This document shows, in pieces, positions 6,308-57,210 of a DNA stretch of 64,000 nt. The notes beneath the pieces are model-generated. The model made no database searches. It had not been told where the DNA came from and saw only the letters and a program-made list of their open reading frames with translations. Source of the DNA: Thiohalobacter thiocyanaticus (GTDB taxonomy: Bacteria; Pseudomonadota; Gammaproteobacteria; Thiohalobacterales; Thiohalobacteraceae); assembly GCF_002356355.1 (NCBI RefSeq), contig NZ_AP018052.1, forward strand, positions 434,001 through 498,000. Direction: 5' to 3'. Numbering within the stretch: position 1 is the first letter of the stretch; every line of letters starts with the position of its first letter. The translations under genes and the position numbers were made by a program.

Positions 6308-7639
6308 TTGATCGATTCTCCCTGTCTTCATTCGTGGTCCTTGTGTCTCGCGCTTGTGCTGAGCGTGATGCCCGCGTTCGCCCAGCCCATGCAGACCCTG
6401 CAGCAGCGCCTGGATGCTGCCGGGCCGGGTGCGGTGATCGAGGTCCCGGCCGGCACCTATACCGGCAATCTGGTCATATCCGGGGCGCTGACCCTGGACG
6501 GTAAGGGCGAGGCGATCCTGGACGGCGATGGCAGCGGCGATGTGATCCGCGTCAAGACGGCGGATGTCACGATCCGGGGGCTGACTATCCGCAATTCCGG
6601 CAAGAACCTGACCGACATGAATGCCGGCATCTTCGCCGAGAAGGGCGCCGGGAATCTGCGTGTCATTGGCAATCGGTTAGAGAATAACGCCTTCGGTCTG
6701 TGGCTGGACGGCTGCCGCGCTCCCGAGGTGATCGACAACCGCATCCAGGGCGCGCCGCAACTGCGTTCCCAGGACAACGGCAACGGCATACACCTGTTCG
6801 CCGTTCATGACGGTCTGGTCCGGGGCAACCGAATCAGCGGCACCCGTGACGGCATCTACATCGACACCAGCCAGTACAACCGGCTGGAAGGCAATTACAT
6901 GCAGGGCCTGCGCTACGGCATTCACTACATGTACTCCTACAACAACGAGGTCATTGGCAACCATACCCGCAACACGCGCACCGGCTATGCCCTGATGCAG
7001 TCCAAGCACCTGGAGGTCAGGGGCAATGTCTCGGAGAACGACCTCAATTACGGTATCCTGATGAACTATATCGTGGACAGCCGTATCAGTGGCAATCATG
7101 TCAAGGGTACCCGCACCGGGCGGGCCTTCGTCACCGGGGGCGACGATATCGCCGGGGCCGACGGCAAGGCGTTGTTCATCTACAACGCCCAATACAATGA
7201 GATCACCGGCAACGTGCTCGAGGACGCCGATATCGGCATTCATCTCACGGCGGGCTCAGAGAACAATGCCATTCACAGCAACGCCTTTGTTCGCAACCGG
7301 GTGCAGGTGAAATACGTCGCCACCCGCGAACAGGAATGGTCCGATGAGGGCCGCGGCAACTTCTGGAGCGACTACCTGGGCTGGGACATGAATGCCGACG
7401 GCATCGGCGATCGTCCCTACGAGCCCAACGACGCCGTCGACAAGCTACTGTGGCGCTATCCCATGGCACGGGTGCTCATGAGCAGCCCCGCCATCGAGAC
7501 CCTGCGCTGGGTGCAGCGCCAGTTCCCGGTGTTCAAGCCCCAGGGCGTGCGCGACAGCCACCCGTTGATGCGCCCGCCGGAGGGCGTGTCTGATCATGAA
7601 ATGCTTTCAACGCAGAGGCGCAAAGGCGCTGAGACATGA
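6308..7639 (+). CDS. nosD: NosD, periplasmic copper-site maturation factor for NosZ
   Basis: NosD is a periplasmic right-handed beta-helix protein of the CASH/pectate-lyase type. It acts with the NosFY transporter in assembling the CuZ site. A signal peptide (LALVLSVMPAFAQ) is followed by repeated beta-helix rungs with recurrent N-x-I/V-x-G-N steps from about residue 45 to 330. The start is uncertain. TTG at 6308 has AGGTGG four bases upstream and gives a clean signal peptide; GTG at 6293 and TTG at 6263 are alternatives. The last ten or so residues (STQRRKGAET) are encoded by a dispersed repeat, an unusual tail. Confidence 0.93.
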   Translation: MIDSPCLHSWSLCLALVLSVMPAFAQPMQTLQQRLDAAGPGAVIEVPAGTYTGNLVISGALTLDGKGEAILDGDGSGDVIRVKTADVTIRGLTIRNSGKNLTDMNAGIFAEKGAGNLRVIGNRLENNAFGLWLDGCRAPEVIDNRIQGAPQLRSQDNGNGIHLFAVHDGLVRGNRISGTRDGIYIDTSQYNRLEGNYMQGLRYGIHYMYSYNNEVIGNHTRNTRTGYALMQSKHLEVRGNVSENDLNYGILMNYIVDSRISGNHVKGTRTGRAFVTGGDDIAGADGKALFIYNAQYNEITGNVLEDADIGIHLTAGSENNAIHSNAFVRNRVQVKYVATREQEWSDEGRGNFWSDYLGWDMNADGIGDRPYEPNDAVDKLLWRYPMARVLMSSPAIETLRWVQRQFPVFKPQGVRDSHPLMRPPEGVSDHEMLSTQRRKGAET

Positions 7640-7683
7640 AAATAGAAAATGAATTTCCCTGGCGTCTCTGCGCCTCCGCGTTG
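7608..7683. repeat. CGCAGAGGCG-type palindromic repeat across the nosD stop
   Basis: AACGCAGAGGCG at the left is mirrored by CGCCTCCGCGTT at the right. The left arm is in frame with nosD and supplies its C-terminal codons and stop. The same family is found at 17530, 19602, 44066, 45347 and 53342. Confidence 0.85.
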
Positions 7684-9451: not shown

Positions 9452-9477
9452 ATCCCGCATCCCTCTGGAGAGTCGTC

Positions 9478-10119
9478 ATGCCGTTTCCGCACTTAACAGG
9501 TTTCCGGTTCAATCCGTCATGCCGACGCAGGCCGGCATCCAGGCGCGGCGCCCCGATCGCTGCCGGCAGCGATCGGGATGTCAGGTCCGGCAGCAGGCTC
9601 AGGCATCTTTTGGTTCTGTTCCTCGCAGGGCAGTTCCTGCTCGCCGGATGCGGGCAGGCGCCCGAGGCCGAGCGCAGCCTGGAGCCGGTCGCCATCGAGG
9701 CCGGTGACGAGTGCCATGTCTGCGGCATGCTGATCACCCGCTTCCCCGGCCCCAAGGGCGAGGCCTTTGTCCGCCACCGGGAGACACCGCTCAAGTTCTG
9801 TTCCACCCGTGACCTGTTCGTGTGGCTGCGCCAGCCCGAGTCCGCCGCCATTGTCGAGGCCGTGTTCGTCCACGACATGACCAGCGCACCGTGGGACTCG
9901 CCCGCCCGGAAGCATCTGATTCCGGCCGAGACCGCCTGGTATGTGGTGGGCGGCGACCAGAGCGGCGCCATGGGACCGACCCTGGCCAGCTTCGCCTGGC
10001 GCGAAGCCGCTGAAGTCTATACCGACACGCACGGTGGTCAGGTAATGGCGTATGAGGAGATCAACCTCCCGGTACTGGAGGCACTGAACGAACTCGAACC
10101 CAGGCATCATCACCACTGA
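9478..10119 (+). CDS. nosL: NosL, copper-chaperone lipoprotein for NosZ
   Basis: NosL is an outer-membrane-anchored copper chaperone that feeds apo-NosZ. The Cu(I) motif C79-H-V-C82-G-M84 is present, followed by KFCSTRDLF and a conserved FVHD segment. The lipobox LLAGC places the lipidated cysteine at residue 58, unusually late. About 30 extra residues precede the hydrophobic stretch, and part of them (PSCRRRPASR) is a translated REP repeat. There is no ATG or GTG between the repeat and the hydrophobic core, so translation must start upstream, at ATG 9478 with a GGAG site. It ends in a histidine-rich tail (HHHH). Confidence 0.95.
   Translation: MPFPHLTGFRFNPSCRRRPASRRGAPIAAGSDRDVRSGSRLRHLLVLFLAGQFLLAGCGQAPEAERSLEPVAIEAGDECHVCGMLITRFPGPKGEAFVRHRETPLKFCSTRDLFVWLRQPESAAIVEAVFVHDMTSAPWDSPARKHLIPAETAWYVVGGDQSGAMGPTLASFAWREAAEVYTDTHGGQVMAYEEINLPVLEALNELEPRHHHH
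9514..9543. repeat. REP element inside the nosL signal region
   Basis: CCGTCATGCCGACGCAGG followed by CCGGCATCCAGG has the same design as the elements at 40817 and 45488. It is in frame and gives the arginine-rich segment just before the lipoprotein signal helix. Confidence 0.8.
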
Positions 10120-17525: not shown

Positions 17526-17701
17526 GGGGAACGCAGAGGGCGCAGAGGCGCGGAGAATGCTTAATGGGTGTAGATTTGGGTTGGGTGCATGGCACCGTAA
17601 CCCAACGTTCCGGGCAATATCGGGTTACGCTGCGCTAACCCGATCTACCTTTTGTTCCGGTGTTTATCCTGAAAATACTTTGCGTTCTCTGCGTTAAAGC
17701 C
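17526..17701. repeat. Nested palindromic repeats between yqeY and dnaG
   Basis: The outer arms are GAACGCAGAGGGCGCAGAGG and TTTGCGTTCTCTGCGTT. The inner arms are GGGTTGGGTGCATGG with CGTAACCCAACG, then GGGTTACGCTGCGCTAACCC. An inner family thus appears inserted into an outer one, within the rpsU-rpoD operon on the transcribed strand. There is no transposase frame. Confidence 0.7.
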
Positions 17702-19579: not shown

Positions 19580-19694
19580 TTTGAGTGTTTCAGGAGTAAC
19601 GTAGAGGCGCGGAGGCGCAGAGAATATTGTTTCACTCCGGGGCAGGCCGGAATCCAGGAATCAGGGGGGTCAAAAACTCTGCATAAAAACAGGC

Positions 19695-25272: not shown

Positions 25273-25429
25273 TGGCCACGGAATACACGGAAAAACACAG
25301 AATAGAATGTAGGTTGGGTTGGGTGCGCAATACCGTAACCCAACATGTCGCGGGTTGTCGGGTTATGCTGCGCTAACCCGACCTGCGGGCTTTATGATTT
25401 CGTGTCTTTCCGTGTGCTTTCGTGGCGAT
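25273..25429. repeat. Nested repeats between cca and the NDUFA9-like gene
   Basis: The outer arms CCACGGAATACACGG and TTTCCGTGTGCTTTCGTGG flank an inner GTAGGTTGGGTTGGG and GGTTATGCTGCGCTAACCC palindrome. This is the same build as at 17526 and 53342 but with a different outer family. Confidence 0.7.
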
Positions 25430-37679: not shown

Positions 37680-39549
<1,870 letters not shown>

Positions 39550-39606
39550 GGCCGTCGGACGGGCGGCAGCGCCGCCCGTCCCTCACTCCCGCTGTGGAGG
39601 ACAACA

Positions 39607-40404
39607 ATGAAAGGCGAGGCAAAGGTTTATCTGGTGGGTGCGGGTCCCGGCGACCCGGATCTGCTCACGGTCAAGGCGCTGCGGCTGCTGCAGGCGGCCG
39701 ACGTACTGGTCTATGACCGATTGGTTTCAAGAGAGATTCTAAGGCTGGTGCCCGAAGCCGCGACCCGCGTGTGCGTGGGCAAGGCGCCGGGCAGGCACAC
39801 CCTGCCGCAGGAGGAGATCAACCGCATCCTGGTCGAGCTGGCCGCTCCCGGCCGCTGCGTGGTACGGCTCAAGGGCGGTGATCCCTATGTGTTCGGCCGC
39901 GGCAGTGAGGAGGCGCTGCATCTGCTCGCGCACGGTATCGGCTTCGAGGTGGTGCCGGGCGTGACCGCGGCCACCGCCGTCGCCGCCTACGCCGGCATCC
40001 CGCTCACGCACCGCGGCCTGGCACGCGGCGTGCGTTTCGTCACCGGGCATTTCCGCGACGACGAGGCGCTGGACTGGGACTGGGACAAGCTGGCCGAAGC
40101 GCAGACCACCCTGGTGTTCTACATGGGGCTGGGCCGGCTGGACGCCATCTGCGGCCACCTGGTGGAGGCGGGGATGCCCGCTGCGACACCCGCGGCCGTG
40201 ATCCAGCACGGCACGACCGTGCGCCAGCGCCGGGTGCTGTCGGATCTCGCGCACCTGCCTGCGGACGTCCGCCAGGCCGGCCTGGCCTCGCCGGCGCTGA
40301 TCGTCATCGGTGCGGTGGTGGCGCTGGCGGAAAGCCTCGACTGGTTCGGCGCCCAACTCGCCGCAGCGGTGCCCGACAGGATGAGCCATTATGCGAGTGC
40401 CTAA
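39607..40404 (+). CDS. nirE: Uroporphyrinogen-III C-methyltransferase NirE
   Basis: The 265-residue SUMT enzyme makes precorrin-2, the first step of heme d1 synthesis. It shows VYLVGAGPGDPDLLTVKAL, VVRLKGGDPYVFGRG and VTAATAVAAYAGIPLTHRG. Its placement directly after nirS identifies it as NirE rather than a cobalamin CobA. It overlaps nirC by 14 bases. Confidence 0.95.
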   Translation: MKGEAKVYLVGAGPGDPDLLTVKALRLLQAADVLVYDRLVSREILRLVPEAATRVCVGKAPGRHTLPQEEINRILVELAAPGRCVVRLKGGDPYVFGRGSEEALHLLAHGIGFEVVPGVTAATAVAAYAGIPLTHRGLARGVRFVTGHFRDDEALDWDWDKLAEAQTTLVFYMGLGRLDAICGHLVEAGMPAATPAAVIQHGTTVRQRRVLSDLAHLPADVRQAGLASPALIVIGAVVALAESLDWFGAQLAAAVPDRMSHYASA

Positions 40405-40705
40405 ATGCCCGTGGCTGCTCGTACTGCTGGTCGCGGCGGGTGCGGTGCAGGCAGAGCCCGGTGCCGCGCGCCAGGCCGAACTGCGCCACCTGCTGGAACA
40501 GGACTGCGGTTCCTGCCACGGCCTTACCCTGAAGGGCGGTCTGGGGCCGGCGCTCACGCAACAGGCCATGCAGCGGCTGCCGCAGGAGCTCTACGTGAAC
40601 ACCATCCTCGACGGCCGCCCCGGCACCCCCATGCCGCCCTGGCGCGGCATCCTCACCGAAGACGAAGTGCGCTGGCTGGTGGAGGGGCTGCGGTCCGGAT
40701 TCTGA
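40391..40705 (+). CDS. nirC: NirC, small periplasmic cytochrome c55x
   Basis: The 104-residue protein has a signal peptide and one heme motif C39-G-S-C42-H43, plus a methionine ligand region (GTPMPPWRG). NirC is an electron carrier that can serve NirS maturation or NirN. Without nirM it may also feed NirS. It overlaps nirE. Confidence 0.93.
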   Translation: MRVPKCPWLLVLLVAAGAVQAEPGAARQAELRHLLEQDCGSCHGLTLKGGLGPALTQQAMQRLPQELYVNTILDGRPGTPMPPWRGILTEDEVRWLVEGLRSGF

Positions 40706-40768
40706 TTCAAGAGCCTTCACCACGAAGGATGCAAAGCACACAAAAAATAAATCATGCGAGATGACCGA

Positions 40769-42064
40769 ATGCACATGCCGCATACAGGTAAACAGACCGA
40801 AGCCGGTTTCCGAATTCCGTCATTCCGGCGCAGGCCGGAATCCAGAACGCCAAACGGGTCCACAACCCTGGATACCGGCCTGCGCCGGTATGACGGGACC
40901 CTGTGGTTCGTTCTGCTGGGCCTGATTCTCGTCATGAGCGGCTGTGCGACCCCCCAGCTGCGCGGCACCGGCGATCTGGGCCTGGTAATCGAGCGCGCCA
41001 CCGGTTCGGTGCTGGTGGTGGATACCACCGCGCGTGAGAAGCTCGCGCGCATCACCGGGCTGGGCGATCTGTCGCACGCGTCGGCGGTGTTCTCGCGCGA
41101 TGCCCGCTACGCCTACGTCTTCGGTCGCGACGGCGGTCTGACCCGGGTCGATATCCTCAGGAACGAGATCGCAGGCCGCACGGTCCAGGCCGGCAACGCC
41201 ATCGGCGGGGCCATTTCCCAGGACGGGCGCTGGGTGGCGGTGTCCAACTACGAACCCGGCGGGGTGCGCATCTTCGACGCCCGTACCCTGGAACTGGTGG
41301 CCGACATCCCGGCCGAGTACGGCAATGGCCAACGCTCCAAGGTCATCGGCCTGGTTGACGCCCCCGGCCAGCGGTTCGTGTTCAGCCTGTACGAGGCCGG
41401 CCAGACCTGGGTGGTGGAATTCGCCGATCCCGGCAACCCCGTCATCCATAAATTCACCGGCATCGGCCGCCTGCCCTATGACGCCCTGCTCACCCCCGAC
41501 GGACGCTGGTACCTTGCCGGCCTGTTCGGCGAGGACGGCATGGCGCTGCTGGACCTGTGGGACCTGGAGGCAGGCGTGCGCCGCATCCTGCCCGACTACG
41601 GCAGGGGTGACGAGAAGCTGCCGGTGTACAAAATGCCGCACCTGGAAGGCTGGGCGGTGGCCGGCGACCTGGCCTTCGTGCCCGCCGTCGGACGCCACGC
41701 GGTGCTGGTCGTCGACATGAATACCTGGGAGCAGGTCGACACCATCCCGGTGCATGGGCAGCCGGTGTTCGTCATGGCCCGCCCCGACGGGCGACAGGTC
41801 TGGGTCAATTTCGCCTACCCCGACAATGACCGCATCCAGGTCATCGACACCCGCGAGCGCACCCTCATGGCGACGCTGCAGCCCGGCCCCGGTGTGCTGC
41901 ACATGGAGTTCACCCCGCGCGGCAGCGAGGTCTGGGTGTCGGTACGCGACGCCGACGCCCTGGTGATCTATGACACGGCCAGCCTGGAGGAACGCACCCG
42001 GCTGGAGGCGGCCAAACCCAGCGGCATCTTCTTTACCGACCGCGCACACAGGGTCGGTCTGTGA
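40769..42064 (+). CDS. nirF: NirF, heme d1 synthesis lipoprotein with a repeat-encoded N-terminus
   Basis: NirF is a periplasmic propeller dehydrogenase-like protein needed for a late step of heme d1 formation. The propeller motifs VIERATGSVLVVDT, HASAVFSRDARYAYVFGRDGG and YEPGGVRIFDA are family-typical, and a lipobox VMSGC places the lipidated cysteine at residue 59. The 40 residues before the membrane helix are a translated REP pair (SFRRRPESR, TGLRRYDG). No start codon exists between the repeat and the signal helix, so translation must begin upstream at 40769, 40775 or 40754. Confidence 0.93.
   Translation: MHMPHTGKQTEAGFRIPSFRRRPESRTPNGSTTLDTGLRRYDGTLWFVLLGLILVMSGCATPQLRGTGDLGLVIERATGSVLVVDTTAREKLARITGLGDLSHASAVFSRDARYAYVFGRDGGLTRVDILRNEIAGRTVQAGNAIGGAISQDGRWVAVSNYEPGGVRIFDARTLELVADIPAEYGNGQRSKVIGLVDAPGQRFVFSLYEAGQTWVVEFADPGNPVIHKFTGIGRLPYDALLTPDGRWYLAGLFGEDGMALLDLWDLEAGVRRILPDYGRGDEKLPVYKMPHLEGWAVAGDLAFVPAVGRHAVLVVDMNTWEQVDTIPVHGQPVFVMARPDGRQVWVNFAYPDNDRIQVIDTRERTLMATLQPGPGVLHMEFTPRGSEVWVSVRDADALVIYDTASLEERTRLEAAKPSGIFFTDRAHRVGL
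40817..40896. repeat. REP inverted pair inside the nirF signal region
   Basis: CCGTCATTCCGGCGCAGGCC on the left is the mirror of GGCCTGCGCCGGTATGACGG on the right, about 25 bases apart. A half copy of the CCACGAAGG-type outer family (40719-40750) precedes it. Both REP halves are read through in the nirF frame. Confidence 0.85.
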
Positions 42065-43561: not shown

Positions 43562-44096
43562 GGCATTGGCCGCCACGGTTTCGCCGGACGACGCAGCACT
43601 CGAACGGCGTCTGATCGAGCTGACTCAGCAAGGTCTGCCGCTGGTGCCGCATCCCTATCATCAGCTGGCCGACCGGCTCGACGTGACGGCCGGCGAGGTG
43701 ATGGAGGCCTTCCGACGTATGCAGGCGAGCGGGGTGGTGCGCCGCATCGCCGCCGTACCCAACCACTACCGCCTGGGCTTCCGCGGCAACGGCATGTCGG
43801 TGTGGGATATCCCCGACGGCCTGGTCCGCGAGGCCGGACGCGAGATCGGCGCCCTGGACTTTGTCAGCCACTGCTACATCCGTCCCCGCGCCCTGCCGGA
43901 CTGGCCCTACAACCTGTTCGCCATGGTTCACGGCCGCAACCACGACGCCGTGTACGACCAGGTCGCACGGATTGCCGATATGCTGGGCGAACGGGTGCAG
44001 CACTACGACGTCCTGTTCAGCACCGAGGTGCTGAAGAAGACAGGTTATCGGAGTGCGGCGACAAAAACGCAGAGGCGCGGAGACGCAGAGGAATGA
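43554..44096 (+). CDS. nirH: NirH, siroheme decarboxylase subunit with a repeat-encoded tail
   Basis: The 180-residue paralogue of NirL has RRIAAVPNHYRLGFRGNGMSVWD and CYIRPRALPDWPYNLFAMVHG. Where NirL ends RRFKQ-G-ARY, this protein reads EVLKKTGYRSAA and then a dispersed-repeat tail, KTQRRGDAEE. The original C-terminus was therefore probably replaced or shortened by the repeat. Confidence 0.88.
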   Translation: MSEALAATVSPDDAALERRLIELTQQGLPLVPHPYHQLADRLDVTAGEVMEAFRRMQASGVVRRIAAVPNHYRLGFRGNGMSVWDIPDGLVREAGREIGALDFVSHCYIRPRALPDWPYNLFAMVHGRNHDAVYDQVARIADMLGERVQHYDVLFSTEVLKKTGYRSAATKTQRRGDAEE

Positions 44097-44137
44097 ATTT
44101 CATTATTGCCATCTCTGCGCCTCCGCGCCTCTGCGTT
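44066..44137. repeat. CGCAGAGGCG-type palindrome across the nirH stop
   Basis: AACGCAGAGGCGCGGAGACG is mirrored by TCTGCGCCTCCGCGCCTCTG. The left arm encodes the last nirH residues; the right arm ends 30 bases before the nirJ ATG. Confidence 0.88.
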
Positions 44138-44166
44138 AATGACATTCAGCTCAATAGGTGAACGAA

Positions 44167-45438: not shown

Positions 45439-45670
45439 ATCCACGGATGAACACGGATCAAGGATTGAATTTTGCTGTGAAGAGTACCGTCATTCCCGCG
45501 CAGGCGGGAATCCATATACCGCCGCGGCTACTGGATCCCCGCCTGCGCGGGGATGACGCTGTGTAGCCGTGACAGCGAGCCGGGATAAGCACAGCATTGA
45601 CGGCAATGCCGGTCTTGGTGGATTGCAGAAATGAATTTCATCCATGTTCATCCGCGTTCATCCGTGGCCA
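45439..45670. repeat. Composite repeat around a REP pair before nirN
   Basis: Outer arms ATCCACGGATGAACACGG and GTTCATCCGCGTTCATCCGTGG enclose a REP pair at 45488-45558 (CGTCATTCCCGCGCAGGCGG and CCGCCTGCGCGGGGATGACG). The right outer arm is read as the nirN N-terminus. Confidence 0.85.
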
Positions 45671-47257: not shown

Positions 47258-47400
47258 TCGCAGCCCGCAGGTCGGATTGGCACGCAGTGCGTAATCCGAC
47301 ATAGACAGCCATCCATGTCGGGTTACGCTGCGCTAACCCGACCTACCTGAAAGGCAGGCAGTAGCTTGGGCTTCACGTTGTTCAGCCCAACCTGCGGGAG
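47258..47400. repeat. Several stacked GTCGGATT/GTCGGGTTA repeats after nirN
   Basis: AGGTCGGATTGGCACGCAGTG with GCGTAATCCGACAT, then GTCGGGTTACGCTGCG with TAACCCGACCTAC, then TTGGGCTTCACG with GCCCAACCTGCGGG form three hairpins in a row. No gene is visible between 47218 and 47530. Confidence 0.75.
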
Positions 47401-53341: not shown

Positions 53342-53545
53342 AACGCAGAGGGCGCGGAGACGCGGAGACGCAGAGAATGATTGGTGTAGGTCGGGTTAGC
53401 GCAGCGTAACCCGACAGGGCTGCGGAGGACGTCGGGTTACGCCCTGTGGGCTAACCCGACCTACATGATTGTCTGGCGAGGCCGAAACATGCCGAATGCG
53501 AACAACACATCATTGATGTTCTTTGCGTCTCCGCGCCTCTGCGTT
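53342..53545. repeat. Nested repeats after norQ
   Basis: Outer arms AACGCAGAGGGCGCGGAGAC and GCGTCTCCGCGCCTCTGCG flank an inner GTAGGTCGGGTTAGCG / CTAACCCGACCTAC palindrome at 53386-53464. It interrupts the nor cluster. Confidence 0.85.
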
Positions 53546-53570
53546 GATATCACCCGGCCGGACAGAAACC

Positions 53571-57126: not shown

Positions 57127-57210
57127 ATGTAGGTCGGGTTGGCCCGGGAGGGCGTAACCCGACGGCGCCGCGGCCGGTGTCGGGTTACGCTGCGCTAACC
57201 CGACCTGCAA
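57127..57210. repeat. GTAGGTCGGGTT palindrome after norD
   Basis: GTAGGTCGGGTTGGCC, GGCGTAACCCGACGG, then GTCGGGTTACGCTGCG and GCTAACCCGACCTGC form two hairpins at the convergent ends of norD and nnrS. Confidence 0.85.

Follow-up and report, generated by a model that had tools for sequence, protein, structure and literature searches.

What is a palindromic repeat doing in the frame of nirF, downstream of the start codon and ahead of the lipoprotein helix, and why does a second denitrification lipoprotein gene, nosL, read the same repeat in the same frame? Both genes lie in the stretch analyzed here, a window of 64,000 nucleotides from Thiohalobacter thiocyanaticus (genome 434001-498000; the source genome is termed G000 below). 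An earlier note had regarded the repeat as a basic n-region and suggested that it is selected or tolerated as an exapted module. Comparison with two congeners, G001 and G002 (about 93% and 87% nucleotide identity to G000, respectively), and a survey of the whole genome lead us to favor a different answer. Probably the repeats are tolerated passengers of cleaved leaders, translated and then discarded, and the nirF copy was inserted in the common ancestor of the three congeners. The relevant features, in window coordinates, are:

40391..40705, + strand: nirC, a c-type cytochrome gene; its leader in G000 is empty (MRVPKCPWLLVLLVAAGAVQA)
40769..42064, + strand: nirF coding sequence from its likeliest start, ATG 40769 (longest ORF: from ATG 40754)
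40817..40845, + strand: REP arm 1, CGTC-1 type, CCGTCATTCCGGCGCAGGCCGGAATCCAG; nirF reading PSFRRRPES(R)
40846..40867, + strand: inter-arm spacer of 22 nt, 49-nt offset dimer class; 11 of its 22 bases differ from G002
40868..40896, - strand: REP arm 2, head-to-head; nirF reading LDTGLRRYDG, giving the basic residues closest to the helix
40901..40945, + strand: NirF h-region and lipobox, LWFVLLGLILVMSGC; predicted first Cys of mature NirF at 40943-40945
9467..9480, + strand: nosL Shine-Dalgarno (GGAG) and ATG, conserved in G000, G001 and G002
9478..10119, + strand: nosL coding sequence, leader MPFPHLTGFRFNPSCRRRPASRR...RLRHLLVLFLAGQFLLAGC; Pfam NosL (PF05573), E=7e-46
9515..9541, + strand: single REP arm in the nosL leader, reading PSCRRRPAS(R); present in G000 and G001, not in G002
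45488..45558, strand not assigned: intergenic REP dimer, a non-leader comparison copy, upstream of the gene starting at 45631; not at the G002 site

The nirF product matches Pfam Cytochrom_D1 (E=3e-120, residues 71-430 of the ORF 40754-42064). Its start is probably ATG 40769 rather than ATG 40754, because in G002 the first ATG (MRDD) meets a TGA after four codons, whereas all three congeners preserve the second. From this start the frame passes through the whole dimer (40817-40896), whose arms are 93% complementary, and on into the lipoprotein helix. As NirF is a membrane-anchored lipoprotein in Pseudomonas aeruginosa (PMC3694632), cleavage of the leader is to be expected here too. The repeat does lie upstream of the helix in both proteins, but not directly before it as had been claimed: 18 residues separate PSFRRRPESR from the helix in NirF and about 20 separate the REP peptide from it in NosL. 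The basic residues closest to the helix are GLRRYD, from arm 2, in NirF and the non-REP RSGSRLRH in NosL, so that the REP could serve as a basic n-region in NirF only through its second arm and in NosL not at all. In nosL a second, perfect palindrome (CCCGATCGCTGCCGGCAGCGATCGGG, 9552-9577) directly follows the REP arm and is missing in G001. The nirF leader regions of G004 and G008 (L042, L043) hold two other, unrelated inverted-repeat families, of the CCACAAAGGACACG...CGTGTCCTTTGTGG and AACCGCCAAG...CTTGGCGGTT types, which would code part of the apparent NirF signal peptide; this is in line with the nirF leader being a permissive site.

The repeat itself is borne out by the genome. Arms with at most two mismatches number 312 in the 3.23-Mb one-contig assembly, against a single match to a reversed control pattern. 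CGTC-1 REPs are defined by a CGTC tag (variants TGTC and CCTC), an 8-bp stem, a 4-base loop, a CCA tail and head-to-head dimers, are mostly intergenic, and take in Neisseria dRS3 and Rickettsia RPE-6 (Di Nocera et al. 2013, PMC3733652). The present element shows each of these traits: CGTCAT stands at the outer end of nearly all listed dimers, that of nirF included; arm 1 can be written ATTCCGGC-GCAG-GCCGGAAT-CCA, with an 8-bp stem that starts with A-T pairs and a 4-base loop; and 109 of 164 dispersed elements are +- dimers. An Rfam search of 39500-41500 gave zero matches. By a home-made gene caller 271 of 276 arms are intergenic, the exceptions lying in a ComP-like gene, inside uvrA and at the 3' end of lpxK. 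Leaders are thus not the sole tolerant sites. The uvrA dimer is in frame within the gene (L209:2120-2210, genome 1710.06 kb), and as uvrA insertions were reported in Thioalkalivibrio and other species (PMC3733652), this gene is a recurrent REP target. The 3' end of lpxK is made of a REP dimer that apparently provides the stop codon (L214, genome 1919.66 kb).

Exact arms are absent from six of nine other genomes sampled and number 24-29 in two; besides G007 and G008 (see below), four genomes of the family have none. The REP content is thus largely a genus-level burst, and the element is probably a small non-autonomous mobile palindrome that expanded in the genus. We know of no dedicated flanking transposase for the CGTC-1 family. 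The elements are unevenly spread, with about 27 in 104 kb at genome 556-660 kb as against about 5 per 100 kb genome-wide. Two other repeat families were observed in the window: a palindromic one, TCGGGTTACGCTGCGCTAACCCGA, with at least five copies (17617-17650, 25355-25388, 47315-47348, 53385-53416, 57177-57210), and a further intergenic one, AACGCAGAGGCGCGGAGACGCAGAG, often in inverted pairs (7600-7640, 19597-19629, 44057-44146, 53516-53554).

Gain and loss of the element can be followed among the congeners. The nirF dimer of G002 occupies the same place and frame, at equal length, as that of G000. A 75-nt in-frame deletion removed both arms in G001, which also has a 3-nt insertion and now reads ...AGSRNDGTLWFVVLLGL...SGC; just RND remains of the REP peptide. 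Filled and empty alleles were found for three further genes. The nosL of G002 reads MLNPRLYMFLLLPWLLAGC, without the REP, behind the conserved Shine-Dalgarno and ATG; nirC is REP-filled in G002 (MRALRQIDPSCRRRPASSTAGRMNTALRRYEGRNRRGGLLGVFMLSALAAGVQA), a remnant in G001 and empty in G000; and a gene which we take from its sequence to be dsbD shares its ATG, which overlaps the upstream stop, between G000 and G002 and continues as MTPISLTSPSCRRRPASMHLTPLGSGLRRNDGKEATARGFPALRFLGLLLSLLLLPLQSHA in the former and MTKFLHPGALLLALLLPFAAHA in the latter, with and without the REP respectively. Every indel inside the filled leaders of nirF, gspI and gspJ is a multiple of three (75 and 3 nt in nirF, 3 in gspI, 18, 3 and 21 in gspJ). 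In the control gene kdtA, an upstream REP that is open in frame in G000 shows stops and a 1-nt indel in G002. These comparisons suggest that the nirF and nosL REPs are probably translated. Between G000 and G002 the nirF arms differ by one substitution in 59 positions, against half of the spacer; as intergenic orthologous REPs likewise have arms that are better conserved than their spacers, this is a property of the element. Nor is the nirF REP unusually conserved between species, 18 of 36 mapped REP-bearing gaps holding a REP in both genomes.

The frame is kept, and the leader peptide itself is essentially unconstrained. For G000 and G002, dN/dS in the leader is 0.20/0.12 (1.6) in nirF, 0.17/0.20 (0.86) in gspJ, 0.26/0.21 (1.25) in gspI and 0.14/0.11 (1.26) in the ComP-like gene; the corresponding mature parts give 0.03/0.26, 0.05/0.31, 0.05/0.45 and 0.08/0.39. 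The nosL leader, over 30 codons of G000 and G001, gives 0.18/0.27 (0.7). Leaders thus range from 0.7 to 1.6 and mature parts from 0.12 to 0.19. Substitution in the leaders is neutral, and in these five genes we found no purifying selection on the REP-coded residues.

The REPs that fall within coding sequences concentrate in cleaved leaders, those of nirF, nosL, dsbD, a ComP/PilE-like prepilin, gspI and gspJ, plus nirC in G002, and in all of these they sit between the start codon and the hydrophobic segment. At least seven exported proteins of the genus hence appear to carry an in-frame REP insertion in an N-terminal leader that would be translated and cleaved off. In both G000 and G002 the leader of the ComP/PilE-like prepilin is 56 residues long and contains a REP dimer, and the strong Shine-Dalgarno ahead of it (AAGGAGGCGATATG) is identical; ComP-like leaders of other genera have 6-9 residues (e.g. 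MRDRARG, MQGRRG). In G000 and G002 the leaders of gspI and gspJ (Pfam T2SSI and T2SSJ) run to about 85-90 residues and hold a REP dimer together with a second palindrome; gspJ leaders elsewhere are short (MRMRG and similar). The same composite precedes each of these two genes (L177:2120-3030, genome 805.0-805.9 kb), in the order (TGAGGCG)n heptamers, REP dimer, second palindrome of the GTCGGGTTACGC type and inverted heptamers (CGCCTCA)n, and the whole of it is open in frame with the prepilin. An MSHA-like prepilin (182.4 kb), a seventh candidate in G000, was set aside as ambiguous: it is open in frame, but its interspecies indels are not multiples of three and it may start after its REP.

A genome-wide count was made with the home-made caller, which relies on codon usage and was run on about 605 kb around REPs plus the window, the final list being curated by eye. 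For each of 130 genes lying downstream of a REP we determined whether its frame can be followed back across the REP, without a stop, to a start on the far side; the two remaining phases served as controls. Export status came from a crude home-made signal-peptide classifier, which rejected dsbD for its later membrane helices. Over all 130 genes there is no enrichment, 11 being open in frame versus 16 and 7 in the other phases. Once exported genes are set apart, 8 of 15 of them are open in frame as against 3 of 115 others (Fisher 5.6e-7), one of the three being dsbD. Restricted to 200 nt, the counts are 8 of 15 (controls 1 and 3) and 3 of 100 (controls 15 and 4), and the curated table, with the MSHA-like case included, gives 7 of 15 versus 0 of 100 (1.5e-7). 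Exported genes make up 15 of the 130 (11.5%, against 13% of all genes) and so are not over-represented downstream of REPs; the excess therefore concerns the position of the REP. Plausible starts lie after the REP in four exported or membrane-anchored cases (618.4 kb, 2429 kb, 2571 kb and kdtA), which are probably due to chance, as the stops and the 1-nt indel in G002 show for kdtA.

The enrichment for which the earlier note proposed a test thus exists for signal-peptide and prepilin genes but does not extend to the first-arm reading frame. The SFRRRP first-arm frame accounts for 6 of 11 in-frame cases and 11 of 23 out-of-frame controls (binomial 0.05-0.12, not significant); the PSFRRRPESR frame is used in roughly half of the open REP readings, so that its recurrence in two of two genes carries little weight. 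A role of the REP as donor of a start codon, through the ATG of the WIPACAGMT frame, was likewise rejected (10 in frame, 10 and 7 out of frame). Among 45 elements with 25 gene relations in G007 and G008, which represent two further genera of the family, there is no convincing leader insertion, but only about one would be expected in so small a sample; the leader pattern was observed in one genus.

Could all this be coincidence, the two REPs being unrelated intergenic copies whose open frame matches that of the next gene by chance? The all-gene counts, in which the true frame does no better than the other phases, would fit such a reading, but the contrast between exported genes and the rest, together with the comparative evidence for translation in several genes, renders it very improbable. 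A more substantial alternative holds that the nirF REP is an untranslated intercistronic element, an mRNA stabilizer or attenuator between nirC and nirF, with nirF starting downstream. The overwhelmingly intergenic location of the arms, their conservation relative to spacers as in intergenic copies, and the very stable RNA hairpin predicted for the nirF copy (z = -5.45) all accord with it, as does the view that many N-terminal REPs may be extragenic (PMC3733652). However, the stretch from the nirF REP to the helix has no in-frame ATG, GTG or TTG save the ATG within the lipobox, and a start at CTG 40901, which would leave the REP untranslated, would yield a signal peptide without basic residues. 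The nirF frame is moreover kept across three species despite indels of 75 and 3 nt, and conserved starts lie upstream of the REP in nosL, dsbD and the ComP-like gene, with a clear Shine-Dalgarno in nosL and the latter. We consider this alternative unlikely.

Slightly less likely still is the exapted module, in which selection keeps the REP peptide because its arginines form the signal peptide's basic n-region. The NirF residues closest to the helix are indeed REP-derived. In addition, the second arm is read as LRRND or LRRDD in all seven putatively translated dimers (nirF, dsbD, ComP-like, gspI, gspJ, MSHA-like and G002 nirC) and never as WIPACAGMT, although the two frames are equally open genome-wide (74 and 75 of 93 elements); this has a chance of about 1 in 128, computed post hoc. 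Yet the leaderless uvrA REP is in the LRR frame as well, the PSFRRRPES frame is not enriched, and the basic residues beside the NosL helix are of other origin. Leader dN/dS is near 1, the NirF of G001 and the NirC of G000 do without the REP, and other genera have short leaders free of REPs. Of the earlier formula, "tolerated" is what survives, and it extends to dsbD, gspI, gspJ, the ComP-like prepilin and G002 nirC; "selected" and "exapted" find no support.

The tolerated-passenger reading can be put as follows. In the ancestor of the three congeners a CGTC-1 dimer would have transposed into the stretch that separates the NirF start codon from the hydrophobic helix. There it would be translated within a long n-region and lost at leader cleavage, leaving mature NirF unchanged. 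Similar insertions would have occurred independently in nosL, G002 nirC, dsbD, the ComP/PilE-like prepilin, gspI and gspJ. The n-region of signal peptides tolerates changes in length. Being cytoplasmic, variable in length, satisfied by some basic residues, and removed by signal peptidase I, signal peptidase II or prepilin peptidase, it would be one of the few coding sites in tightly packed operons to accept 25-90 extra residues. Since five of the six frames of a REP arm are open, many insertions would survive, and selection would afterwards preserve the frame alone and not the peptide. REPs near operon junctions would persist in coding sequence mainly where the coded residues are discarded.

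It is possible, and we offer this more tentatively, that cleaved export leaders (Sec, lipoprotein and prepilin) are a general safe harbor for small mobile palindromes in bacterial coding sequence, a reservoir of in-frame insertions that leave no trace in the mature proteome, and that the second-arm frame adding arginines near the helix is mildly favored. REPs are generally held to be extragenic, and N-terminal REP readings are usually put down to wrong start calls. The sister genomes suggest that in exported proteins several such readings are real coding insertions and that the disposable leader shelters mobile DNA. This bears on start-site annotation and on signal-peptide prediction, as the leaders reach 45-90 residues. 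The filled and empty allele pairs provide natural material on how much n-region length matters, and the leader rule is simple enough to lend itself to testing in any genome rich in REPs.

In-frame REPs in genes are already known from CGTC-1 REPs and from the Rickettsia elements. The present element resembles the former in tag, stem, loop, tail and dimers, and both REPs within ORFs and their excess at ORF N-termini were reported for that family (PMC3733652). Many N-terminal cases were thought extragenic there, unlike here, where sister genomes support translation and a concentration in cleaved leaders; we did not find the latter described, and the main text of that study makes no mention of signal peptides, leaders or pilins. 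Another parallel is YPO1552 of Yersinia pestis, in which a small mobile repeat adds to a predicted signal peptide while the signal sequences of relatives are unrelated (Delihas 2007, PMC2759123); that case is a single prediction for another element family, without filled and empty alleles or a genome-wide count. The Rickettsia palindromic elements, as outlined by Ogata, Claverie and co-workers, are likewise palindromic repeats in frame in many genes. The filled and empty alleles of dsbD, nosL and nirC, and the loss from nirF in G001, agree with that pattern of an in-frame insertion that relatives lack in a protein conserved elsewhere along its length. Unlike those, which by the same outline occur in varied proteins and positions, nearly all coding insertions of the present element lie in cleaved leaders, and the mature proteins are expected to be free of it.
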